A stretch of DNA of 32,986 nt. Source: Bacilli bacterium (GTDB taxonomy: Bacteria; Bacillota_I; Bacilli_A; RFN20; CAG-826). The notes under the pieces were generated by a model. It worked only from the letters and a program-made list of their open reading frames with translations, was not told the DNA's origin and did no database searches. The stretch is taken from assembly GCA_024408295.1 (NCBI GenBank), contig JAKSVE010000011.1, forward strand, positions 1 through 32,986, written 5' to 3'. Made by a program: the position numbers and the translations under genes. Shown one piece after another: positions 4,606 through 26,190 of this stretch; within the stretch, counting starts at the first letter, position 1, and every line of letters starts with the position of its first letter.

Positions 4606-6033
4606 CTATTTTCCTGTTTTGTGCTTAGCGATTATTGCATCAGCACAGTCGATACCGTCTTTAATCGCTGTTACAACTAAGGACTGACCGTTCTTCATAT
4701 CTCCGCATACCGAAACGTTGTCTCCGTATTCGAATCCGTTGAGTTTGATGCGGTGATTTGTAGCGTTGAAGTTATATAACTTAATGTCTTCCTCACTAGT
4801 TCCGAGGAAGCCCATCGAGATTATCAAATAATCGCATGGAAGATATTTTTCGCTATTTTCAATATCTGCGAACTTGCCGTTTATAAATTCGACTTTCTTG
4901 ATGTATACACCTTCGATGCGATCGGTTCCAACTATCTTGCTGATTGTTGTCTGGTATTTTCTAACATCGTATCCAAGCGTTGCGTTTGCTTCTTCGATTC
5001 CATAGTCGGTTTTCTTCTTGTTTGGGAAGTTAGGCCATGGAAGAGTGTTCTCTAGTGGTGGCTCTTTCATTATTTCCAACTCATATACTGACTTTGCACC
5101 TAATCTAATAGAAGTGGCGACACAATCATTTCCGGTGTCTCCGCCTCCGACAACGATGATGTTCTTGCCTTCCATATTGTATGTGAAGTCCTTCTCGTCT
5201 AAGAGGTTGCGTGTTGTTTCTTTCAAGAAGTCGACAGCGTAGACCACTCCGCTTAAAGATACGTTTTCAAGATTCAATGTTCTTGGTTGTGATGTGCCAC
5301 AGCAGAAGATTATCTCATCATAAGTCTCTTTGAGTTTCTCTAATGGATAGTCTTTTCCGATGTAAGTGTTGTTGACGAAGATGATGCCTTCCTCTGATAA
5401 CAGTTTGATTCTTCTCTCGATGATTGATTTTTCAATCTTCATATTAGGAATGCCGTACATTAAGAGTCCACCAAATCTGTCCTCTTTTTCGAATACAGTG
5501 ACGAAATAGCCTTCATCATTAAGTCTTTTTGCACAGGCAAGTCCACTTGGACCGGATCCGATTATGGCGGCCTTCAACCCATTTCTCTTAATATGTCTAT
5601 TTGGCTTGATGCATCCATTCTTAAAAGCGTTCTCGATGATGAACAACTCGTTAGCCTTGACACCGACTGCCTCGTAGTTGATGGAACAAGAACAAGCAGC
5701 TTCGCATAAAGCAGGGCACACCCTTCCGGTAAATTCCGGGAATGGGGCAACGGCAACCAGTCTTTTGTAAGCTTCTTCATATAATCCAAGATACACAAGA
5801 TGGTTGGTCTCAGGGATGAGATTTGATAATGGGCAACCTACGTTTCTTCCATTGAATTTCATTGCGGACTGACAGAAAGGAACTCCGCAGTTCATGCATC
5901 TAGCAGCCTGTTCTTTTTGTGTTTTCTCGTCAAATTCCGCGTGGAATTCAGCGAAATCCTTTATTCTTTCATCTATTGGTCTAGAGGGTTTGTTAACTCT
6001 AGAATATTCCATGAATCCTGTTGGTTTTCCCAT
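4606..6033 (-). CDS. gltD: Glutamate synthase (NADPH) small subunit GltD
   Basis: Electron-input subunit of glutamate synthase; it passes reducing equivalents from NAD(P)H through FAD and Fe-S clusters to GltB. The 475-residue product has an N-terminal cluster region with RCMNCGVPFCQ and GRVCPALCEAACS cysteines. An FAD dinucleotide fold follows at IIGSGPSGLACAKRL (about residue 150), and a second nucleotide fold at IIVVGGGDTGNDCVATS (about residue 290). I chose the ATG at 6033 (MGKPTGFMEY). It has a GGAGGG SD inside the end of gltB and begins one base after the gltB stop. The reading frame stays open 45 codons further upstream, but that stretch lies inside gltB and is low-complexity. Last gene of the operon, followed by a terminator. 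Confidence 0.95.
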   Translation of the reverse strand: MGKPTGFMEYSRVNKPSRPIDERIKDFAEFHAEFDEKTQKEQAARCMNCGVPFCQSAMKFNGRNVGCPLSNLIPETNHLVYLGLYEEAYKRLVAVAPFPEFTGRVCPALCEAACSCSINYEAVGVKANELFIIENAFKNGCIKPNRHIKRNGLKAAIIGSGPSGLACAKRLNDEGYFVTVFEKEDRFGGLLMYGIPNMKIEKSIIERRIKLLSEEGIIFVNNTYIGKDYPLEKLKETYDEIIFCCGTSQPRTLNLENVSLSGVVYAVDFLKETTRNLLDEKDFTYNMEGKNIIVVGGGDTGNDCVATSIRLGAKSVYELEIMKEPPLENTLPWPNFPNKKKTDYGIEEANATLGYDVRKYQTTISKIVGTDRIEGVYIKKVEFINGKFADIENSEKYLPCDYLIISMGFLGTSEEDIKLYNFNATNHRIKLNGFEYGDNVSVCGDMKNGQSLVVTAIKDGIDCADAIIAKHKTGK

Positions 6034-6034
6034 A

Positions 6035-9000
6035 TTACTTTCCCTCCATGAATTTTGTGAATCCTGACATCTCAGGGTTTGGATCGCCGGCTTCTTTGAA
6101 TTGCTCGATGAAGGAGACGATCTTGGCGTAGTCGTTAGGCAAGACCTTGAAGAACTGATTCTTATCAAAGTTCAGCTGGATGTCTCTGACATATTTAGAA
6201 TTCGTATTGTCTATATGCTTCTGGATCATATCTTTCACAATAACCTCATCCTTCTCATCAAGCGGGAGAATTGATGATAGTTCTGTGTTGACGTTTACCT
6301 TGTTGTGCAAGCCGTAGATGTAGGCCACGCCTCCTGACATACCAGCTCCGAAGTTTCTTCCGATATTTCCAAGGATAAGAGTGGTGCCGCCTGTCATGTA
6401 TTCGCAACCGTGCTGTCCGCAGCCTAAAGCGACGACTTTAGCTCCGGAGTTTCTGATCGCGAATCTTTCTCCAGCGATACCTTCAAGGTAACATTCGCCA
6501 TCGGTCGCGCCATATAAGGCAACGTTACCGCAGATGATATTTGCTTCTGGCTTAAATGATGATTTTTTGGATGGTATGACGATGATTTTGCCTCCGCATA
6601 AGGATTTACCTAAATAGTCATTTGCGTCGCCTGTAACAACGATTTTAATTCCCTTGGTTAAGAATGCTCCAAATGAGTTACCGGCATTACCTTTGCAGGA
6701 TATGATAATTGAGTCTTCGCTCAATCCATCTTTCCCGTATAACTTTGTTATTTCGTTTGAAAGCATTGTGCCGAATGCACGGTTGACGTTAGAGATTTCC
6801 AAGTCGATCTTCTTGGACATCTTGCCTTCCATAGCTTCTTTACATAAAGGCAAGAGAACACGGCTATCGACGGTTCCGCTTAAGTCGTTTTGCTTATACG
6901 CCTTAAAGGTTGCGTCCTTGTTTAAGACTTGTGCGTTGAATAAAAGCTTATCGACATTGAGCTTATCTTTATATTCGTCTTTTAGCGAAAGGAGTTCTGA
7001 ATGGCCGACCATCTCGTCGATTGTCCTGAATCCGAGAAGAGACATGTATTCTCTTAATTCAGTTGCGATGAACTTCATGAAATTCATGACATATTCAGGC
7101 TTTCCTTTGAAATTCTTAATTAAATTCTCATCTTGAGTTGCAATACCCATTGGACATGTGTTGAGGTTGCACACTCTCATCATGATACATCCCATGGCGA
7201 TGAGTGGTCCGGTTGCGAAACCAAATTCCTCAGCACCTAGCAAGATTGCGATTGCAACATCTCTACCTGTTAAGAGCTTGCCGTCTGTTTCAACACGGAC
7301 ACGGTCTCTTAAACCATTCATAACAAGTGTCTGATGTGTTTCTGCAAGTCCGATTTCCCATGGGATGCCGGCGTTATAGATTGATGTACGTGGTGATGCA
7401 CCGGTACCTCCATCGTATCCGGAGATAAGGATGGTATTGGCTCCCGCTTTAACAACACCTGCGCTGATAGTTCCAATTCCGGATTCGGCAACTAACTTGA
7501 CCGAGATTCTTGCATCTCGATTTGCGTTCTTCAAATCGAAAATCAACTGAGCGAGGTCTTCGATTGAATAGATGTCGTGGTGTGGTGGTGGGGAGATAAG
7601 GCTGACACCTGGAGTTGAATGTCTTGCTTTAGCAATCCAAGGATAGACCTTTCCGCCAGGAAGTTGTCCGCCTTCTCCAGGCTTAGCACCCTGTGCCATC
7701 TTGATTTGGATTTCTTTAGCGTTGGTTAAATATTCGATGGTGACGCCAAATCTACCTGATGCAACCTGTTTGATAGCGGAACATCTATTTACTTCTTCGG
7801 TGTTGCCATAGTATCTATCGCGATCTTCGCCGCCTTCACCGGTATTTGATTTAGCGTGCAACCTATTCATGGCTATTGCCATACATTCATGTGCGCTCTT
7901 GGAGATTGAACCATATGACATAGCGCCTGTTTTGAAACGTTGGACGATTGATTCAACGCTCTCGACTTCATCAAGAGATATAGGCGATGCGTAGTTGAGT
8001 TTAAGAGTGTCTCTGATGTTTATTACCTTATCCTCAAGCAATGATGAGAATAGCTTATATTCCTGATAATCGCCGGTTTTGCAGGCATTTTGCAGGTGAA
8101 TGACGGTTAAAGGGTCATAGATGTGGTCGTGGTTGTTCTTTCTATAGCCATGCAAACCTGTTGAAAGGAGGATATCATCTTTTCTTGCTAGAGCCTTCTT
8201 GTATAAAGAGATTGTGTTTGCTTCGATCTCCTTGATGCCGATGCCGCCTAAAGAGGCTGGTGTATTGGTGAAGTACTGATTGACGAACGCGTCGTTTAAG
8301 CCGATACATTCGAAAATCTGAGCACCTAGATATGACTGGATGGTTGAGATACCCATCTTGGATGTAATCTTTGTGATTGATTTTGTGACGGTATCAACAT
8401 AGTTGCACAATGCGGTTTTGGCATCCACTTTGATGTATCCACGTTTAATGTATTGTTCGATGGTTTCGTACACCAAGTATGGATAAATAGCGTTCACGCC
8501 ATATCCGATGAGTGTGGCGTAGTGATGGATCTCTCTAGGTTCTCCTGCCTCTAAGACGATCGAGACGTGTGTTCTCTTGGAACATCTTATCAAATGCTGG
8601 TGGACAGCACTTGAAACGAGAAGTGAAGGGATGGCAATGCCGTTTTGGTTGCGGTCCGAAAGAATGAGGATTGAAGCTCCTGAGTTAATCTTTATGTCAC
8701 ACTCGATGAAGATTCTTTCTAATGCCTCTGACATCGACTCCTTTTCGTGGTCGTAGCAGATGGAGATGACATCGACTTTTATCTTCTTTGTGCTATAGAG
8801 TTTTTTAACCTTGTAGAACTGCTCTTTAGTGAGGATTGGCGAAGATAATCTAACTCTTTTTGCGTTTGCACTTGTTGGATTTAGCATATTGCCTTCGCTT
8901 CCGAGGTACACAGCACTAGACATGACGATGCTTTCTCTTATGGAGTCGATTGGTGGGTTTGTAACCTGAGCAAATCTTTGCTTAAAGAACTGGAAGAGGT

Positions 9001-10513
9001 TGAATTCCTTCTTCATTAAGACCGCGAGAGGGATGTCGTTACCCATCGCGACTAATTTTTCTTTTCCTTCCGATGCGATTGGGAGTATGCCCTCCATCAA
9101 TTCATCGTACGCGTATCCATATTTATTTTGTAAGAAATTGATGTCATATTCCGCCTTGGTCTCTTTTTCTTTTGGCAAGTCATCGATATTGATGATGCTC
9201 TCATTCCATTTTTTATACGGCTTAAGAGAAGCGTAATATTTCTTGATTTCATCATTTGAGATGATTCTTCCTGATTCCGTATCAACCAAAAGAATCTTGC
9301 CTGGTTCAAGTCTTCTCTTCTCTAGGATGTTGTCCTCTTCAATTGGGAGAGAACCCGTTTCGGAGAAGAGGATTAGATAATCGTCTTTTGTTACATAGTA
9401 TCTTGATGGTCTAAGGCCGTTTCTATCTAAAGATGCGCCGACCTTTGTGCCATCGGAGAAGATGATTGATGCCGGTCCATCCCAAGGTTCCTGGAATGTT
9501 GAATTGAACTGATAGAACGCCTTAAGATCTTCATCCATCGATTCATCCTTTTCCCATGGCTCTGGAATCATCATCATGATGGTTTCTTCAAGCGGTCTTC
9601 CATTGAGGTACATGAACTCAAGGAAGTTATCGAACATCGATGAGTCTGAGGATTCTTTTAAAATGATTGGTCTAACTTTCTCTAAATCTTCTTTGAAATG
9701 ATCTGATTTGAACAAACCTTCTCTTGCTTTGATGGAGTTGACGTTGCCTCTGATGGTGTTGATTTCGCCGTTGTGGCATAAGAAACGGTATGGGTGTGCT
9801 CTATCCCAGCTTGGGAATGTGTTGGTCGAGAAACGTGAGTGGACCAAAGCGATAGCGGTTTCCACTTTTGTGTCTTTCAAATCTAGATAGAAATCCTGAA
9901 CCTGGGTGGACACAAGCATGCCCTTATAGACGATGGTCTTGGATGAGAAGGAGCAGAAATACAGCTTTGAGTTAACTTTAAGGGCTCTTGACTCGATGAC
10001 TCTGCGTGCAATGTAGAGTTTTCTTTCGAAATCGATGCCGGCTTCAATGCCTTCTGGACGTTCAACAAACAATTGCTCCATGCATGGCATTGTCTTCAAA
10101 GCAGTTTTACCGATTCCGTATGTGTCATAAGGGATTCTTCTATAACCAAGAATCTTGATTCCTTCTTCCTCCATGACTTTGGCAATGAGTTCTTTTTCCT
10201 TCTCTCTTAAGCTCTCGTTTGGAGATAAGAATAGCTGACCAACTGCGTAGTCATATTCATTAGGAAGCTCGAAGCCCAAAATCTGGTTGCGGAAGAATTT
10301 GTCAGGAATCTGGAAAAGAATGCCCGCTCCATCACCTGAATTATCTTCTGCACCCGTGCCGCCTCTATGCTCTAAATGGATGAGGATGTTGAGAGCGTCT
10401 TTGATGGTCTTGTGAGATCTGATTCCTTTTATCTGAGCGATTGCGCCGATACCGCAGGCATCGTGTTCGTAACTTGGATCGTATAATCCTTGCTTTGCTG
10501 GATAATCTAACAT
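6035..10513 (-). CDS. gltB: Glutamate synthase large subunit GltB
   Basis: Converts glutamine plus 2-oxoglutarate to two glutamates, the second half of the GS-GOGAT cycle. At 1492 residues it is full length. It starts with a short propeptide and HDACGIG, giving Cys20 as the N-terminal nucleophile of the class II glutaminase domain (about residues 20-410). A central domain follows, then the FMN/2-oxoglutarate barrel with SGYDGGTGASPRTS near residue 1040 and the 3Fe-4S cysteines in MRVCNLNTCPMG near 1120. The C-terminal glycine-repeat beta-helix contains GNAGNSFGAFL and GDANDYLGKSLCGGKI. The start has a strong SD (AGGAGG). It is preceded eleven bases away by the ANTAR regulator and coupled to gltD. 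No frameshift is seen. Confidence 0.97.
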   Translation of the reverse strand: MLDYPAKQGLYDPSYEHDACGIGAIAQIKGIRSHKTIKDALNILIHLEHRGGTGAEDNSGDGAGILFQIPDKFFRNQILGFELPNEYDYAVGQLFLSPNESLREKEKELIAKVMEEEGIKILGYRRIPYDTYGIGKTALKTMPCMEQLFVERPEGIEAGIDFERKLYIARRVIESRALKVNSKLYFCSFSSKTIVYKGMLVSTQVQDFYLDLKDTKVETAIALVHSRFSTNTFPSWDRAHPYRFLCHNGEINTIRGNVNSIKAREGLFKSDHFKEDLEKVRPIILKESSDSSMFDNFLEFMYLNGRPLEETIMMMIPEPWEKDESMDEDLKAFYQFNSTFQEPWDGPASIIFSDGTKVGASLDRNGLRPSRYYVTKDDYLILFSETGSLPIEEDNILEKRRLEPGKILLVDTESGRIISNDEIKKYYASLKPYKKWNESIINIDDLPKEKETKAEYDINFLQNKYGYAYDELMEGILPIASEGKEKLVAMGNDIPLAVLMKKEFNLFQFFKQRFAQVTNPPIDSIRESIVMSSAVYLGSEGNMLNPTSANAKRVRLSSPILTKEQFYKVKKLYSTKKIKVDVISICYDHEKESMSEALERIFIECDIKINSGASILILSDRNQNGIAIPSLLVSSAVHQHLIRCSKRTHVSIVLEAGEPREIHHYATLIGYGVNAIYPYLVYETIEQYIKRGYIKVDAKTALCNYVDTVTKSITKITSKMGISTIQSYLGAQIFECIGLNDAFVNQYFTNTPASLGGIGIKEIEANTISLYKKALARKDDILLSTGLHGYRKNNHDHIYDPLTVIHLQNACKTGDYQEYKLFSSLLEDKVINIRDTLKLNYASPISLDEVESVESIVQRFKTGAMSYGSISKSAHECMAIAMNRLHAKSNTGEGGEDRDRYYGNTEEVNRCSAIKQVASGRFGVTIEYLTNAKEIQIKMAQGAKPGEGGQLPGGKVYPWIAKARHSTPGVSLISPPPHHDIYSIEDLAQLIFDLKNANRDARISVKLVAESGIGTISAGVVKAGANTILISGYDGGTGASPRTSIYNAGIPWEIGLAETHQTLVMNGLRDRVRVETDGKLLTGRDVAIAILLGAEEFGFATGPLIAMGCIMMRVCNLNTCPMGIATQDENLIKNFKGKPEYVMNFMKFIATELREYMSLLGFRTIDEMVGHSELLSLKDEYKDKLNVDKLLFNAQVLNKDATFKAYKQNDLSGTVDSRVLLPLCKEAMEGKMSKKIDLEISNVNRAFGTMLSNEITKLYGKDGLSEDSIIISCKGNAGNSFGAFLTKGIKIVVTGDANDYLGKSLCGGKIIVIPSKKSSFKPEANIICGNVALYGATDGECYLEGIAGERFAIRNSGAKVVALGCGQHGCEYMTGGTTLILGNIGRNFGAGMSGGVAYIYGLHNKVNVNTELSSILPLDEKDEVIVKDMIQKHIDNTNSKYVRDIQLNFDKNQFFKVLPNDYAKIVSFIEQFKEAGDPNPEMSGFTKFMEGK

Positions 10514-10524
10514 GTTGAGCCTCC

Positions 10525-11121
10525 TTAGTTTTTGTATTCAACGATGATTGATTGTGCCGCTTCCTTTTTGGTCATGCGTTCATTCATCGCTTTTCTTTCA
10601 ATGATGTGATGCGCCTCATCTTCGCTGATGGACCTACGCTTCATCAGTATGATTTTGGCTTCGTTTACTAGCTGTATTTCTTTTATCTTTTCCTTTAATG
10701 ACACCTCAGATGAGGAGCGTTTCTTGAGGCTTGCTAGCTTTTGCCTGGTCAGACATAAGATTTTCAATGATTGTGTGAACAACGAAGAAGGAGTTGGTTT
10801 TGCAAGGGTAATGATGCCTAACTCGTTTGTTTTATCGAACAATTCATCGTATTGATCCGATTTTGCGAGAAGGATGATTCCAACTTCGTGCTGATCGTTT
10901 ATTTCTAGAGCCAGATTTAATCCTGATTCATGCTCTAGAGGGGCGTTGATGATGACGACATCAAAATGCCTCTCAAGCAGCAGACGTCTAGCGTTCATTG
11001 GATCGCTAGTGATTGTCGGCGTGTTGATTTGAGGGTTATCTATTAGATTTTTAGTTATGGCCTGCGTGATGCTCTGATGTGAACAGATTATCAGCACGTC
11101 ATATCTGACCTCTTTAAGCAT
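10525..11121 (-). CDS. ANTAR-domain antitermination regulator with pseudo-receiver (NitR/GlnR-like)
   Basis: A 198-residue two-domain protein. Residues 5-120 look like a response-regulator receiver (VLIIC..., FDVVIINAPLEHESG, IILLAKSD, LAKPTPSS), but Asn59 sits where the phosphorylatable Asp should be. The acidic pair after the first strand is replaced by Cys-Ser, so classical phosphorylation is unlikely. Residues 125-140 form a coiled linker. Residues 141-195 match the ANTAR RNA-binding domain (VNEAKIILMKRRSISEDEAHHIIERKA...KKEAAQSII). ANTAR proteins bind nascent RNA and prevent termination. A related regulator lies between glnA and glutamate synthase genes in Clostridium saccharobutylicum, the same order as here. 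SD GGAG precedes the start. The likely targets are the two leader terminators at 12072-12126 and 12322-12368; this is inference. Confidence 0.88.
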   Translation of the reverse strand: MLKEVRYDVLIICSHQSITQAITKNLIDNPQINTPTITSDPMNARRLLLERHFDVVIINAPLEHESGLNLALEINDQHEVGIILLAKSDQYDELFDKTNELGIITLAKPTPSSLFTQSLKILCLTRQKLASLKKRSSSEVSLKEKIKEIQLVNEAKIILMKRRSISEDEAHHIIERKAMNERMTKKEAAQSIIVEYKN

Positions 11122-11139: not shown

Positions 11140-12057
11140 TTATTTTCCTGATATTGTTTTTAAGATATCGCTATATAGCATGTAGAAATTTGAGGAGTAG
11201 GCGATTCCTTTGATTGTGATATTTCCCTCACACTCAACCGTGTTCTCAAATGATGCGGATTGGTTTGTAAGATATTTTCTGATTGTTTCGAATCCAGCTT
11301 TTAGGTTGTTATAGTATTCGATTGTCTTTTCGCCTGGATTTGAGATGCCGATGACTTGGATTGAAGGGGCTTCGTTTTCAATTGGTGAGGAGGAGAAGTC
11401 TGCTTCTAGTCCGTTCATTGCTGCCATAGTCTTGGTAACAGATTCGAATGTGATTGAATTCTCGGCTGCGTTTAAAGCGGTGGTTGGCGATAAGCAGATT
11501 GCGTTTTGTCCAGGACCAATCGCGTGGAATGATCCGCAGGTCTCAATCTCCATCTCTAAGAGGTTAAGACAAATGTCTCTTCTTATCTTTTCGCCTTTAT
11601 CTAGCGGAGCGATATCCATCAATGATGCTTTGTCGTATGGGATCTTGGTGTTATTGCCTTCATCATCAAGTTTGAAAGCGTAGAACTCGAAACGCTGGAA
11701 GAAGTGGATGTTATCTAATCCTGTTTCTTCAACTGTATTCTTGAGTTCTTTTCTTGGTGATAGTAGATCGTTAGCTGAGATATCGCAGAACATTCTGATG
11801 ACTCGTCCCTGAGAAGGTCTCCACGGAAGAAGCGATATGGTGTTTGGGTCTGGATATAGAGTAATTTTCTTTGCCTTTTCATATCCTGAGATAGAAGTGG
11901 AATCAATCTTGAAACCCTCATCGAATGCCTTTGACAATTCGTTAGGCATGATTGAGATGTTCTTCTGATTACCATTCAAATCACAGAACACTAGACGTAT
12001 GAATTTAACGTCCTCTTCGTTTACGTAAGCTAAGACATCATTCTTTGTGTATTTCAT
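11140..12057 (-). CDS. Catalytically dead, C-terminally truncated glutamine synthetase-like protein
   Basis: First gene of the gltBD operon, 305 residues against about 440 for type I glutamine synthetase. The N-terminal half aligns to GSI throughout: MKYTKNDVLAYVNEEDVKFIRLVFCD, FKIDSTSISGY, TLYPDPNTISLLPW, FEFYAFKLDDEG, MDIAPLDKGEKIRRDICLNLLEME. Key metal and substrate ligands are lost. The first Glu of GPEPEF is Arg122 (only Glu124 remains), HHEVAPGQHE has become FHAIGPGQNA (Ala179, Asn185, Ala186), and the FGVNGSGMH motif is replaced. The C-terminal active-site half is absent, and only about 60 unrelated-looking residues follow. The frame is open, the SD (GGAGG) is good, and the ANTAR gene begins right after it. 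It therefore looks like a maintained gene, perhaps a glutamine or nucleotide sensor or a partner of GS or of the ANTAR protein. Function unknown. Confidence 0.88.
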   Translation of the reverse strand: MKYTKNDVLAYVNEEDVKFIRLVFCDLNGNQKNISIMPNELSKAFDEGFKIDSTSISGYEKAKKITLYPDPNTISLLPWRPSQGRVIRMFCDISANDLLSPRKELKNTVEETGLDNIHFFQRFEFYAFKLDDEGNNTKIPYDKASLMDIAPLDKGEKIRRDICLNLLEMEIETCGSFHAIGPGQNAICLSPTTALNAAENSITFESVTKTMAAMNGLEADFSSSPIENEAPSIQVIGISNPGEKTIEYYNNLKAGFETIRKYLTNQSASFENTVECEGNITIKGIAYSSNFYMLYSDILKTISGK

Positions 12058-12071
12058 ATTTGCTTACCTCC

Positions 12072-12126
12072 AAAAAATAAAAAACAGGCGCTCAAAGGGT
12101 GCAAAAACCCTGATCGTGAACGCCTT
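12072..12126 (-). terminator. Leader terminator (attenuator) of the GS-like/ANTAR/gltBD operon
   Basis: On the minus strand, AAGGCGTTCA (from 12126) pairs with TGAGCGCC (ending at 12087). Inside is a second stem AGGGT / ACCCT closed by a six-base loop TTTTGC, with a five-base bulge between the stems. It is followed at once by GTTTTTTATTTTTT and then the SD of the GS-like gene. No gene lies upstream on this strand, so the hairpin can only act on this operon's own leader. Confidence 0.85.
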
Positions 12127-12171
12127 TGTTCCCCTCTATATTACCATGAATGCATAGATAAATTCCATAGT

Positions 12172-12201
12172 ATATTACATAGTAATAAAGCGAATTGCTA
12201 A
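12172..12201 (-). promoter_or_regulatory. Possible promoter of the GS-like/ANTAR/gltBD operon
   Basis: Weak hexamers TTAGCA (12196-12201) and TAATAT (12172-12177) with an 18-base spacer, four of six matches each. This would start a leader of about 107 bases that contains a small hairpin (12144-12157) and the terminator at 12072-12126. Confidence 0.35.
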
Positions 12202-12253
12202 ATTTTATAAAATATTTATATTTTATATTCTCTGCGTTTTTTCTTTTTTTATG

Positions 12254-12267
12254 TGAAAGTGCTTACA
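12254..12267. promoter_or_regulatory. Candidate operator TGAAAGTGCTTACA upstream of glnN
   Basis: Imperfect palindrome twelve bases upstream of the glnN -35 box, in the divergent glnN/gltB region. It differs from the CcpA cre pattern by one base. Closely related sites lie at 24132, 24176 and 25982. Its centre lies 43.5 bases before the -10 box, the same distance as at the purE promoter. Confidence 0.45.
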
Positions 12268-12279
12268 CCTTTTGAGTTG

Positions 12280-12309
12280 TTGACAACCCTTTTCTTGTCC
12301 CCCTAAAAT
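12280..12309 (+). promoter_or_regulatory. Sigma-A promoter of glnN-amt
   Basis: Consensus TTGACA (12280-12285), an 18-base spacer, and TAAAAT (12304-12309). The -35 region sits in the small palindrome GTTGACAAC. Transcription should start near 12316, just before the leader terminator. Confidence 0.75.
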
Positions 12310-12321
12310 GTTGGCACATAA

Positions 12322-12368
12322 GGCAATGGGGCCACTATGTATTTGCATAGGCCTCATTGCCCTTTTTT
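12322..12368 (+). terminator. Leader terminator (attenuator) of glnN
   Basis: GGCAATGGGGCC (12322-12333) pairs with GGCCTCATTGCC (12350-12361) through twelve pairs including one G-T. An inner TATG/CATA stem carries the hexaloop TATTTG (12340-12345). Six T residues follow (12363-12368). The hairpin lies between the promoter and the glnN SD, with no gene upstream on this strand, so it should attenuate glnN-amt transcription unless antitermination occurs. It is also why the glnN start must be downstream of it. Confidence 0.9.
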
Positions 12369-12388
12369 CGTTAATAGGAGAAGAAAAA

Positions 12389-14473
12389 ATGAAACAAGTT
12401 CAGGACTACTTCGGTTGTAACGTCTTCAATGACAAAGAGATGAAGATGAGATTGTCATCAGATGTTTACAAGAAACTCAAGAAGACAATCATTGATGGAA
12501 AGGAACTCGACATCAGCGTCGCTAACTCAGTTGCTCAGGCAATGAAGGAATGGGCGATCGAAAAAGGAGCCACACACTACACGCACTGGTTCCAGCCAAT
12601 GACAGGTATTACCGCAGAAAAGCATGACGGTTTCATCTCTCCAGAAGATGACTCAAGAGTCATCATGGAATTCAAGGGAAAGGAATTGGTCAAGGGTGAG
12701 CCAGACGCATCATCATTCCCAAGCGGTGGCTTAAGAGCAACATGCGAGGCAAGAGGATATACAGCATGGGACCCAACCAGCTTTGCATTCATCAAAGGTA
12801 AGACATTATGCATTCCAACCGCCTTCTGTTCATATGGCGGTGAGGCACTCGATAAGAAGACACCTCTTTTAAGATCCATGCAGGCTTTGAATAAGCAGGC
12901 AGTAAGAGTTGCAAAGCTCTTCTCAAGCGAGGTTGAAACTGTTAGAACAACAGTCGGACCAGAACAGGAATATTTCTTGGTCGACAAGGAAATCTACAAC
13001 AAGCGCAAGGACTTGATCTATACAGGCAGAACAGTCTTCGGCGCTCTCCCTCCAAAAGGCCAGGAATTAGATGATCACTATTTCGGCGCTATCAAGCCAA
13101 GAGTCCAGGAATTCATGGATGAACTCAACGAAGAACTTTGGAAATTGGGCATCTTAGCAAAGACAGAACACAATGAAGTTGCACCTGCTCAGCACGAGCT
13201 TGCCCCAATCTTCTCAACAACAAATATCGCTGCAGATCACAACCAAATCACCATGGAAATCATGAAAAAAGTTGCTGATAAGCATGGTTTAGTGTGCCTT
13301 TTGCACGAAAAACCATTCAAGGGAGTCAATGGTTCAGGTAAGCATAACAACTGGTCAATCTCAACAAATACAGGCGTTAACTTACTAGAACCAGGCGACA
13401 CACCAGCAGAAAACGCACAGTTCCTCTTGTTCTTGGTTTCTGTCATCAAGGCAGTCGATGACTATCAGGACTTATTAAGAATTTCAGTTGCTTCAGCAAA
13501 CAACGATTTCCGTTTAGGCGCTAACGAAGCACCTCCAGCAATCATCTCAATCTTCCTTGGAAGCGAATTACAGGCTGTCCTCGATTCAATCGAAACAGAC
13601 ACACCTCTTGAGAAGCATGGTAAGTCATTCTTAAGAATCGGCGCTGATGTCTTACCTCCATTACCAAAAGACACAACAGACAGAAATAGAACATCACCAT
13701 TTGCTTTCACCGGAAACAAGTTTGAGTTCAGAGCTCTTGGTTCATCTGATTCAATCAGCTGCGCAAATATCATGCTCAATACAGCGGTTGCAGAATCACT
13801 CAGACAGTTTGCTGATGAATTAGAAGGCGCATCTGATTTCAACGCAGCTTTAAACGCTCTCATCAAAAAGACCATCGTCGAACACAAGCGTATCATCTTC
13901 AACGGCAACGGATACGATGATTCATGGATCGAAGAAGCATCAAAGAGAGGCTTACTCAACTTGAAGTCAACCCCAGAGGCTCTTCCATATTACCTTGCTG
14001 CAAAGAACGTTAAGCTCTTCACATCACACGACGTCTATACAGAAAGCGAGATCAACGCTAGATACTTAATTGGTCAGGAACACTATTCAAAGGTCGTCAA
14101 CATCGAAGCATTAACCGTTGTTGATATGCTCGACAAGGATTATTTGCCAGCAATTTCCAGCTATTCCAAGAAATTGGTCGATGCTGCAATCGCTAAGGCA
14201 TCCGTTGGAATTCCTGCAGATTATGAATTAGAAACCGCAAAGATCCTATCTAGTGGTTTAAGCGAAGCAATCGCTTGCGAGAAGGAACTCAAGGCTGCAA
14301 TCGCTGAGGCTCAGGCAGAAGAGAATCCAGAGAAGAAGTCAATGTTATACAGAAACAGTGTCTTGGTTCTCATGGAGAAAGTCAGAAACATCATCGATAC
14401 ATTAGAAGGCAGCGTTGAAGAATCTGCATGGCCAGTTCCAAGCTACGGCGACTTATTATACGGCGTTAGATAA
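12389..14473 (+). CDS. glnN: Glutamine synthetase type III (GSIII)
   Basis: Makes glutamine from glutamate, ammonia and ATP. The 694-residue length and motifs are those of the GSIII family: [11 protein letters not shown] near residue 190, [18 protein letters not shown] near 260, [14 protein letters not shown] near 310, [20 protein letters not shown] near 372, and [23 protein letters not shown] near 430. All active-site motifs are intact, so this is the working synthetase of the region, in contrast to the dead GSI-like protein encoded divergently. I use ATG 12389 ([10 protein letters not shown]), preceded by AGGAG at 12376-12380. The frame stays open 27 codons further upstream to 12308, but that stretch encodes the leader terminator. 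Codon use is strongly biased to C-ending codons, as expected for high expression. It is followed 23 bases later by amt. Confidence 0.95.
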
Positions 14474-14496: not shown

Positions 14497-16254
14497 ATGG
14501 GTTTTGAAATTTGGTTTCTTATAGGCGCCGCATTCGTCTTCTTCATGCAGGCTGGCTTTGCAATGGTAGAGACAGGCTTTACTAGAGCAAAGAACGCCGG
14601 AAATATCATCATGAAGAACTTGATGGACTTCTGTATCGGAACAGTGGTCTTCACACTTCTCGGCGCTGGACTTATGTTAGGTGAAGATGCTTTGGGTGGA
14701 TTTATCGGACTTCCAACAATGAACATTTTCACCGACTTCACAAACTTTGATTGGTCAAACTTTGTTTTCAACCTTGTCTTCTGTGCAACAGCAGCAACAA
14801 TCGTCTCTGGCTCAATGGCAGAGAGAACAAAGTTCCTCTCATACTGCGTCTACTCAGCTGTTATCTCATTGGTCGTTTATCCAATCGAGGCTCACTGGGT
14901 TTGGGGCTCTGGCTGGCTTTCACAGTTAGGCTTCATTGACTTTGCTGGATCAGCAGCAATTCACTCTGTTGGCGGTATCGTCGCCCTTATCGGTGCTATC
15001 ATGGTTGGACCAAGACTTGGTAAGTACGTAAGGGATAAAGAAACAGGAAAAGTCACTAAAATCAATGCAATTCAAGGCCATTCTATCACTTTAGGTGCAT
15101 TGGGATGCTTCATTCTCTGGTTTGGATGGTATGGCTTTAACGGCGCTGCAGCAAAAGATCTTTCACAGCTTGGTATGATTTTTGCAACAACCACAATCGC
15201 TCCATCAGTAGCAACTGTTGCAACACTCTTATATACATGGATTAAGAATGGTAAGCCTGATGTCTCCATGTGTTTAAATGCTGGCCTTGCCGGTTTAGTT
15301 GGCATCACTGCTGGCTGTTCAAACGTCGACTGCATCGGCGCTACAATCATCGGTTTAGTCTCAGGCTTATTATGCACAATATCAGTTGAAGTCTTGGATA
15401 CAAAACTCCATATCGATGACCCAGTCGGTGCTGTTTCCGTTCACTTTGTGAATGGTGTTTGGGGCACAATCGCTGCAGGCTTGTTCTCAACATCAACTGC
15501 AATCGTTGGAGTTGATGCAACTAATAATCCGGTCTTTGCAGCAGATGGACCAATCTATGCTTTGATCCATGGCACATCATTCGGAGATGGTATGTCCGTC
15601 TTAGGAATCCAGGCATTAGGTATCTTGACTATTCTTGCATGGGCAGGAATCACAATGTTCTTAACCTTCTTCGTGATCAAAAAGACAATCGGATTAAGAG
15701 CATCTGCAGAAGAAGAAATCAAGGGTCTTGATGTCACTGAGCACGGCTTAGTCTCTGCTTATGATGGCTTCGCAATGGTTCCTGAACATCTTGACTACGG
15801 ACCAGAAGCAATTGCAGTTACAGGAGATGTCCCTGCATCTGAAGCGATTGAAGTAAACGTCATGCCTAATGTTGATAATATCCAGCCTGGTGATAAGACA
15901 ATCACAAAGGTTGAGATCATCACGAAGGAAAGAATGCTTGAGCCATTGAAGAACGCTTTGATGGAAATCGGCATCACTGGCATGACAGTCTCCCACGTTA
16001 TGGGATGCGGCATCCAGAAGGGCGCTCCTGAGTTCTATCGTGGAGTTAAGGTTGAACCAACTTTGCTTCCAAAAATTCAGGTTGAAGTCGTCATTGGAGA
16101 AATCGCACCATCCAAAGTTGTTGAGGCAGCTAGGAAAGTTCTCTACACCGGACACGTTGGAGACGGAAAGATCTTCATCTACAATGTGCTTGATGTTGTT
16201 AAGGTGAGAACCGGAGAAACAGGTGTAGCTGCATTAGTCGGCGACAATTCATAA
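14497..16254 (+). CDS. amt: Ammonium transporter fused to a C-terminal PII (GlnB/GlnK) domain
   Basis: A 585-residue membrane protein. Residues 1-410 are an Amt/MEP channel: FVFFMQAGFAMVETGFTRAKNAGNI in the first helix, YPIEAHWVWGSGWL near residue 128, and the two pore histidines in SAAIHSVGG (near 153) and DDPVGAVSVHFVNGVWGT (near 315). After an acidic linker, residues 470-580 form a complete PII domain: ITKVEIITKERMLEPLKNAL, then a T-loop region QKGAPEFYRGVKVEPTLLPK that keeps the tyrosine of FYRG, then EVVIGE and a GDGKIFIYNVLDVVKVRTGE end. PII proteins normally plug Amt as separate trimers in response to ATP/ADP and 2-oxoglutarate; here sensor and channel are one chain. SD GGAAGGAG precedes the start. 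Co-transcribed with glnN. Confidence 0.93.
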   Translation: MGFEIWFLIGAAFVFFMQAGFAMVETGFTRAKNAGNIIMKNLMDFCIGTVVFTLLGAGLMLGEDALGGFIGLPTMNIFTDFTNFDWSNFVFNLVFCATAATIVSGSMAERTKFLSYCVYSAVISLVVYPIEAHWVWGSGWLSQLGFIDFAGSAAIHSVGGIVALIGAIMVGPRLGKYVRDKETGKVTKINAIQGHSITLGALGCFILWFGWYGFNGAAAKDLSQLGMIFATTTIAPSVATVATLLYTWIKNGKPDVSMCLNAGLAGLVGITAGCSNVDCIGATIIGLVSGLLCTISVEVLDTKLHIDDPVGAVSVHFVNGVWGTIAAGLFSTSTAIVGVDATNNPVFAADGPIYALIHGTSFGDGMSVLGIQALGILTILAWAGITMFLTFFVIKKTIGLRASAEEEIKGLDVTEHGLVSAYDGFAMVPEHLDYGPEAIAVTGDVPASEAIEVNVMPNVDNIQPGDKTITKVEIITKERMLEPLKNALMEIGITGMTVSHVMGCGIQKGAPEFYRGVKVEPTLLPKIQVEVVIGEIAPSKVVEAARKVLYTGHVGDGKIFIYNVLDVVKVRTGETGVAALVGDNS

Positions 16255-26036: not shown

Positions 26037-26057
26037 TATATAGCTGATTAACAAAAG

Positions 26058-26139
26058 ATTATTGTGACTGGCGGTAAGATGCGAAGTGACGCAATGAAGC
26101 AATAATTATGCAGCAAACATCGTCGACCGCCTGGGCACA
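26058..26139 (+). promoter_or_regulatory. ZTP riboswitch (pfl motif)
   Basis: The two conserved blocks of the pfl/ZTP aptamer are present in order: GTGACTGGCG (26064-26073) and CCGCCTGGGCA (26127-26137), about 50 bases apart, with a variable stem between. The riboswitch senses ZMP/ZTP (AICAR nucleotides), which build up when 10-formyl-tetrahydrofolate is short, and turns on folate and purine genes. Here it leads straight into purE and the operon that contains the AICAR transformylase, the enzyme that consumes ZMP. Confidence 0.9.
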
Positions 26140-26190
26140 CTATCTAGAATTGATCTTTATCAACTTCTATTAGCGTGTCTTTTTATTTTC
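26135..26190 (+). terminator. Terminator (expression platform) of the ZTP riboswitch
   Basis: TAGAATTGAT (26145-26154) pairs with ATCAAcTTCTA (26159-26169) around loop CTTT, with outer ACAC/GTGT pairing (26136-26139 with 26175-26178), followed by a T run (26180-26189). The outer stem starts at the last conserved aptamer bases, so ligand binding would compete with termination. Confidence 0.75.

Follow-up and report, generated by a model that had tools for sequence, protein, structure and literature searches.

The window, by which we mean the whole stretch of 32,986 nucleotides analyzed here, is an entire contig from a small genome recovered incompletely, with 1.02 Mb spread over 40 contigs and a completeness of 64%. 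Two operons diverge from a point near position 12200, with glnN and amt on the plus strand and a glutamine synthetase (GS)-like open reading frame (ORF), an ANTAR gene, gltB, and gltD on the minus strand. The features that we located are as follows, with the bases of six-base loops (hexaloops) enclosed in square brackets.

4606..6168, minus strand: gltD, glutamate synthase small subunit (domain search; called start, the real one probably lying further downstream)
6035..10513, minus strand: gltB, glutamate synthase large subunit (domain search)
10525..11121, minus strand: ANTAR regulator (PF03861), with a receiver that lacks the phospho-acceptor Asp
11140..12057, minus strand: GS-like ORF, a decayed homolog of class-I glutamine synthetase and candidate sensor or partner (domain search, comparison)
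12079..12125, minus strand: intrinsic terminator, stem at about 12125-12086, T6 at 12084-12079 (folding)
12118..12131, minus strand: putative antiterminator (P2-like) hairpin GAAC[AAAGGC]GTTC, loop 12127-12122 with A1 and G4 (alternative fold)
12138..12143, minus strand: probable -10 box of the GS-like/ANTAR/gltBD operon, TGG-TAATAT, an extended -10 with a weak -35 (sequence)
12254..12267, no strand: cre-like inverted repeat TGAAAGTGCTTACA, between both promoters (sequence)
12280..12309, plus strand: glnN-amt promoter TTGACA-18-TAAAAT (11/12 consensus matches), predicted start at about 12316
12316..12340, plus strand: putative antiterminator (P2-like) hairpin GGC[AATGGG]GCC at 12322-12333, loop 12325-12330 with A1 and G4 (alternative fold)
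12322..12368, plus strand: intrinsic terminator, stem 12322-12361, T6 at 12363-12368 (folding)
12389..14473, plus strand: glnN, glutamine synthetase type III (GSIII; PF12437, PF18318, PF00120)
14497..16254, plus strand: amt, ammonium transporter whose C-terminus carries a fused P-II domain (PF00909, PF00543)

The inverted repeat between the promoters resembles the cre consensus. A similar element is present in three orthologous regions, and it possibly places the locus under a separate, CcpA-type carbon control.

Promoters and terminators of the two leaders

An earlier note on this DNA, made from the sequence alone, had proposed that both operons carry a strong intrinsic terminator between the promoter and the first gene, and that there is no upstream gene for either hairpin to end. 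Both points were confirmed. Folding of the plus terminator gave an MFE of -25.7 kcal/mol (shuffle z -5.35, with 0/200 shuffles equally good), and the minus terminator reached -19.2 kcal/mol (z -4.37, 0/200), a longer fragment of the minus leader being less extreme (z -2.21, 6/200). Because the genes diverge, neither hairpin terminates an upstream gene; both sit just 5′ of the ribosome-binding site of the first gene. A simple terminator scanner run on the window listed neither leader hairpin.

The three further genus members with ANTAR also keep the glnN-amt promoter. For the minus leader of the window, automatic promoter scoring favors a weak site 42 nt upstream. Orthologs of this minus promoter read TTTACA-16-TAATAT or TATTAT and lie 6-7 nt 5′ of the hairpin.

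Hexaloop hairpins within the terminator arms

The loops bound by ANTAR proteins have six bases, with A at position 1 and G at position 4, and the P2 loop is usually buried in a terminator, according to published descriptions (PMC3369931, PMC3369936, PMC8934654). The earlier note had pointed to the loops TATTTG and TTTTGC, which violate this rule, and had suggested that recognition may be new or the signal may lie elsewhere. These loops are present as described, but they are members of the terminator fold rather than recognition loops, and we rejected them as the recognition signal: TATTTG is kept only in a close relative (G036) and differs in two others (G026 and G034). The idea of a new recognition mode is not supported, as the putative recognition loops, which lie in an alternative fold, obey the A1/G4 rule.

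Each hexaloop hairpin takes up the 5′ arm of its terminator, and the two folds are mutually exclusive in both window leaders. Two of the published properties of ANTAR targets are thus found in these leaders, namely an A1/G4 hexaloop on a stem of at least 3 bp and a P2 that overlaps the 5′ arm of the terminator. When the 5′ prefix of a leader was folded alone, the hexaloop hairpin formed in 9/9 leaders folded, and when the hexaloop fold was imposed on a full leader, the base of the terminator was lost. Without ligand, the terminator is predicted at -25.9 kcal/mol compared to -9.7 kcal/mol for the antiterminator in the plus leader, and at -20.9 compared to -10.4 kcal/mol in the minus leader. The terminator is far more stable, which counts against our model, so a protein would have to act within the time window of transcription.

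The plus hexaloop stem is extended by ACATA (12316-12320) pairing with TATGT (12336-12340); counting against our model, the stem proper is only 3 bp long and is followed by an internal loop. The same leader has an additional 3-bp hexaloop, CAT[AAGGCA]ATG, that is missing from relatives. An A1/G4 hexaloop stem such as those observed arises in 0.6-4.3% of per-leader shuffles, so single leaders are suggestive and it is the comparative evidence that carries the case.

Conservation within the genus and order

ANTAR domains occur in 4/279 genomes of the order, and 4/4 of these genomes share the divergent locus, including a leader of each type. In the orthologous regions of the three other genus genomes, the terminator and the hexaloop are kept in both leaders, which brings the alternative hexaloops to 8/8 leaders of the four ANTAR-bearing members. 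In one of these genomes (G034), the divergent gene is amt instead of glnN. Among the records named through the ANTAR alignment, three close relatives are uncultured metagenome-assembled genomes (MAGs; two from horse feces, and UBA1744), and a fourth related locus comes from an Anaeroplasma sp. MAG.

The minus hairpin GAAC[AAAGGC]GTTC does not differ by a single base among the genus members with ANTAR (4/4), and the remainder of the minus leader diverges. Its exact motif, GAACAAAGGCGTTC, is present in 6/37 genus genomes: the four with ANTAR and two with chance matches, one of them in coding sequence and neither with T5 after it. The plus hairpin varies among genus members in its outer stem and in its loop, always within the A1/G4 rule, reading AGGC[AACGAG]GCCT in G026, AGGC[AATGAG]GCCT in G034, and GGC[AATGGG]GCC in G036. 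The G036 hairpin is without most of the outer stem, which counts against the model. In genus members without ANTAR, several GSIII orthologs lie directly behind another gene and have no leader (L028, L030, L031, L032).

The ANTAR and GS-like proteins

The ORF at 10525-11121 is a genuine ANTAR protein, as the earlier note had read it (PF03861, E 1.3e-13). Its ANTAR domain scores 50.9 bits against a cut-off of 27.3, and we aligned it with the EutV, AmiR, NasR, and Rv1626 structures. With residues matched by hand, the equivalents of the EutV RNA contacts K149, E160, M172, N173, and R175 are kept in the window protein, and four others are replaced (R142 to I, K147 to E, R168 to E, and R177 to T), which counts against the model. 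The position of EutV Y164, another contact, is also changed, being His in 15/15 aligned members, as it is in AmiR. The phospho-acceptor Asp of the receiver is absent (VVIINAPL in the window; N or S in other genus members), suggesting that kinase control of ANTAR activity is unlikely. Some ANTAR homologs of the class have an Asp at about this position.

The GS-like ORF matches class-I GS over residues 1-226, and a single Glu is left of 13 catalytic landmark positions (Glu, His, Arg). Nearly all catalytic positions are still present in most class-level GS-like homologs, but very few survive in the window clade. In a tree with an arbitrary root and two very long rows, one long, fully supported branch parts true GlnA from all GS-like proteins. 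Close homologs, with 48-64% identity to the window protein, occur in the other three of the four ANTAR genomes; the other 14 matches among 61 genomes have 31-38% identity (13 in GlnA-length frames, the last in a frame of 240 aa that abuts a contig end). A first scan of named genomes gave no match to the GS-like protein. Retention of this gene beside the regulator while its active site decays would fit a regulatory role, and the co-transcribed GS-like protein is a plausible sensor for ANTAR by analogy with known systems.

Single-hexaloop leaders across the class

The ANTAR alignment search identified ANTAR relatives in 51/395 genomes of the class. At the best-matching loci, the ANTAR gene is usually found 3′ of the GS-like gene, among gltB, gltD, asnB, pyrG, purF, amt, or GSIII genes. 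We count 36 single-hexaloop leaders in 19 genomes, located before glnN, amt, GOGAT, GS-like/ANTAR genes, and pyrG. This tally is made up of 32 leaders, two more in genomes added later (2/2 of which carry the element), and two with 3-bp stems, including the window plus leader, that miss the automatic 4-bp criterion and were entered by hand. The leader of the ANTAR-encoding operon itself has the element in 14/16 loci examined (our own tally). The exceptions, which count against the model, are G301 and G556, where the operon of the GS-like/ANTAR pair has no recognizable hexaloop in its own leader.

Some loci have individual arrangements. G301 has a single-hexaloop attenuator before pyrG (CTP synthase), directly 3′ of the ANTAR gene (L103, 7206, plus strand), and G556 has tandem single-hexaloop attenuators before amt, with one terminator each (L105, about 4907 and about 4842, minus strand). 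In G450, an ANTAR gene has an attenuator leader, and the GS-like position is occupied by about 340 nt without an ORF (L100, 7439-7798, minus strand).

Enrichment, covariation, and genome scan

We applied one rule set to each of the 16 loop classes defined by letters 1 and 4 and counted unique attenuator-like structures in 301 kb of ANTAR loci, which partly overlap, with duplicates dropped by sequence. The A1/G4 class contained 32 structures compared to 2 to 8 in each other class (the remaining 15 averaged 4.8). Since we selected for A1 and G4, their invariance by itself is not evidence. With a C-G closing pair and A2 added, neither of which was among the selection criteria, A1/G4 retained 25 structures compared to 3 for the other classes combined. 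The A1/G4, C-G-closed, A2 class had 0 members in the 113 kb that surround GS genes in relatives lacking a locus of this kind.

The stems also covary. Across 20 distinct hairpins, 97.5% of cells are paired, a percentage favored by the hairpins having been picked for pairing. There are 28 double changes, compared to 7.7 in shuffled and at most 6 in slid alignments, and the covariation score is 0.82 compared to 0.31; some of the hairpins share ancestry, so the figures from shuffling should not be read as probabilities.

A promoter-linked scan of 14 ANTAR genomes returned 57 matches compared to 13 for the reversed pattern, and the same scan of 14 genomes without ANTAR returned 4 matches compared to 4. 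Of the 57 matches, 19 are attenuator-like, all before nitrogen or glutamine-using genes or purA; these include one place counted twice and one purA leader (in G521) that is borderline owing to a bulge. Another 36 were rejected on reading, having a stem below 3 bp or no overlapping terminator, and two were left unread. Many of the rejected matches contain CAAGGAGG, a ribosome-binding-site look-alike.

One hexaloop or two

According to PMC8934654, the current model is that antitermination by ANTAR proteins needs two hexaloops at a fixed spacing whereas binding needs one, and its authors ask for more work on single-hexaloop sites. For EutV, loss of P1 or a longer P1-P2 linker is described as abolishing antitermination (PMC3369931, PMC8934654), and 20 additional nt in the linker abolished it in vitro in the latter study, which counts against our model. 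The published genome searches of PMC3369931 and PMC8164766 demanded two hairpins, so a single-hexaloop class would have been missed. The expression "single hexaloop" was used with ANTAR in one paper only in the largely open-access literature searched.

A P1, taken as a C-G-closed A1/G4 hexaloop on at least 4 bp within 50 nt upstream, was found in 0/32 leaders, whereas the same search code found the pair in 6/6 dual controls, the glnA leaders of family f18. Furthermore, the hairpin follows the end of the -10 box by 6-15 nt in 20/22 leaders with a well-scoring promoter, such that the RNA would start at or near the hairpin, with no room for P1. Both results speak against the leaders being canonical dual-hexaloop targets whose P1 was missed through a further-upstream start or an atypical P1. 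The weak minus promoter of the window, with the better-scoring site upstream of it, and the 22-44 nt that separate the -10 box from the hairpin in a few leaders speak for this explanation, and on balance we consider it unlikely.

Several candidates for a second hexaloop were rejected. For the plus leaders of G026 and G034, a search of the preceding 80 nt found A1/G4 hexaloops with stems of 4 bp or longer nowhere but in the cre-like box, which lies above the promoter. Two further weak upstream hexaloops (L025 plus and L103) are T-A closed. The tandem amt leader of G556 consists of two attenuators with one terminator each. A dimer spanning the two divergent nascent RNAs was rejected as a general mechanism, since a divergent partner is absent for many class-level leaders; in addition, Walshe et al. 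argue against ANTAR binding in trans.

The f18 leaders have a P1 of AGAC[AANGRN]GTCT (5/6) or GGAC[AAGGAA]GTCC (1/6), a linker of 27-35 nt, and a P2 over the terminator. Given that EutV does not tolerate a longer linker, they also deviate from the EutV rule. These dual-hexaloop ANTAR leaders with unusually long linkers (L073, L074, L077, L078, L081, L085) lie between an ANTAR gene and a full-length glnA. By eye, the f19 glnA leaders have a P1 and a possible P2. At L080, L091, L210, L211, and L213, hairpins spaced by about 90 nt and bearing AANGRN loops lie apparently within the f19 ANTAR coding sequence and may represent coding conservation.

Proposed mechanism and alternatives

Sequence and comparison provide the folds, the promoters, the covariation, the conservation, and the phyletic link to ANTAR. 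From these we infer binding, antitermination, and sensing, with low nitrogen or glutamine as the signal. In the reading that we consider probable, the leaders act as transcription attenuators that can adopt either of two exclusive folds, and ANTAR binding to a single hexaloop permits readthrough. By default, the nascent leader would form the intrinsic terminator, and RNA polymerase would halt before the first gene. Under a shortage of nitrogen, probably of glutamine, active ANTAR would bind the early-forming A1/G4 hexaloop hairpin in the first ~25 nt of the RNA; the bound hairpin would sequester the 5′ arm of the terminator, blocking it, and the polymerase would continue. One hexaloop per terminator would suffice, unlike in published ANTAR targets. 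In this way, one regulator would raise GSIII and Amt-PII from the plus strand and GOGAT, the GS-like protein, and ANTAR itself from the minus strand. The likeliest input to ANTAR would be the GS-like protein, by analogy with AmiC-AmiR and NasS-NasT.

The earlier note had already suggested that the regulator relieves both attenuators and couples GSIII/Amt to GOGAT and to its own synthesis. That both leaders look like such attenuators gains support from the conserved, exclusive A1/G4 hexaloops, the co-occurrence with ANTAR in the genus, and the same element on the same kinds of genes class-wide; the suggestion that the loops break the ANTAR rule is not supported. We class the leader RNA as an ANTAR-target-like variant that lies outside the published dual-hexaloop definition. 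More tentatively, and with somewhat less than even confidence, we propose a class-wide nitrogen regulon in which a GS-derived pseudoenzyme would sense nitrogen and set ANTAR without phosphorylation, with antitermination via a single hexaloop at the RNA 5′ end.

It is quite improbable that these are plain attenuators under other control, be it by an RNA-binding protein other than ANTAR, a ligand-binding RNA, or translation of the leader. Many systems use leader terminators, and we infer the link between ANTAR and RNA here; however, the Rfam families all fall below threshold in the leaders (no family at the gathering threshold and three sub-threshold chance matches), and the predicted leaders begin at the hairpin, which leaves space for neither an aptamer nor a leader peptide. 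The loop, with its A1 and G4, fits the ANTAR rule, and within the genus its distribution follows that of ANTAR. Very improbable, too, is that the inverted repeats are DNA operators, i.e., repressor sites at the transcription start, with terminators that merely trim readthrough: GAAC-N6-GTTC is a perfect inverted repeat adjoining the -10 box, a frequent operator position, and a cre-like repeat also lies between the promoters, but an operator should keep its arms, whereas here the arms vary (GAAC, GGC, CGAC, GCAC, AAGC, AGAC, TAGC) and stay paired through compensatory changes, and it is the asymmetric loop AANGRN that is conserved. In the listed leaders, this loop is on the sense strand and within the 5′ arm of the terminator.

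Relation to known systems

As proposed attenuators read through with the aid of ANTAR, the leaders described here resemble the eut leaders of Enterococcus faecalis, which share the ANTAR protein (EutV), A1/G4 six-base loops, and a P2-like hairpin over the terminator 5′ arm. They differ in having one hexaloop, at the extreme 5′ end of the RNA, and the regulator differs from EutV in its receiver without the phospho-acceptor Asp, its GS-like rather than kinase partner, and the replacement of R142, K147, R168, and R177. AmiC-AmiR and NasS-NasT likewise have an ANTAR protein without kinase control that is encoded beside a non-kinase partner, and AmiR shares the His at the EutV Y164 position. In contrast to these pairs, the putative sensor here is a GS homolog and not of the periplasmic-binding type, the targets are glnN, amt, and GOGAT, and the hexaloop is single. 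The glnA leaders 3′ of ANTAR genes in the same class (families f18, f19, and f14) share the loop consensus, C-G closing pair, terminator overlap, and a nitrogen gene, with f18 departing from the window leaders in its two hexaloops before a full-length glnA.

In the glnA-glnR-gltAB locus of Clostridium saccharobutylicum, the ANTAR regulator GlnR adjoins GS and GOGAT genes, as in the window. The gene order is different, and the GS is functional there, whereas the GS-like protein here is decayed. We found no description of a GS-based sensor for ANTAR control in the largely open-access literature searched.

If true, the proposed GS-pseudoenzyme regulon would be natural evidence against a general dual-hexaloop requirement. 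The leaders are short natural constructs, for which the dual glnA leaders of the same class are ready comparators. The locus would also supply a nitrogen-control circuit for uncultured small-genome gut Bacilli, as well as an instance of a GS homolog that stays next to a regulator as its active site decays.

Elsewhere in the window, a ZMP/ZTP riboswitch (RF01750, 45.7 bits) lies at 26054-26143 on the plus strand, 5′ of apparent purine genes, and appears ordinary.
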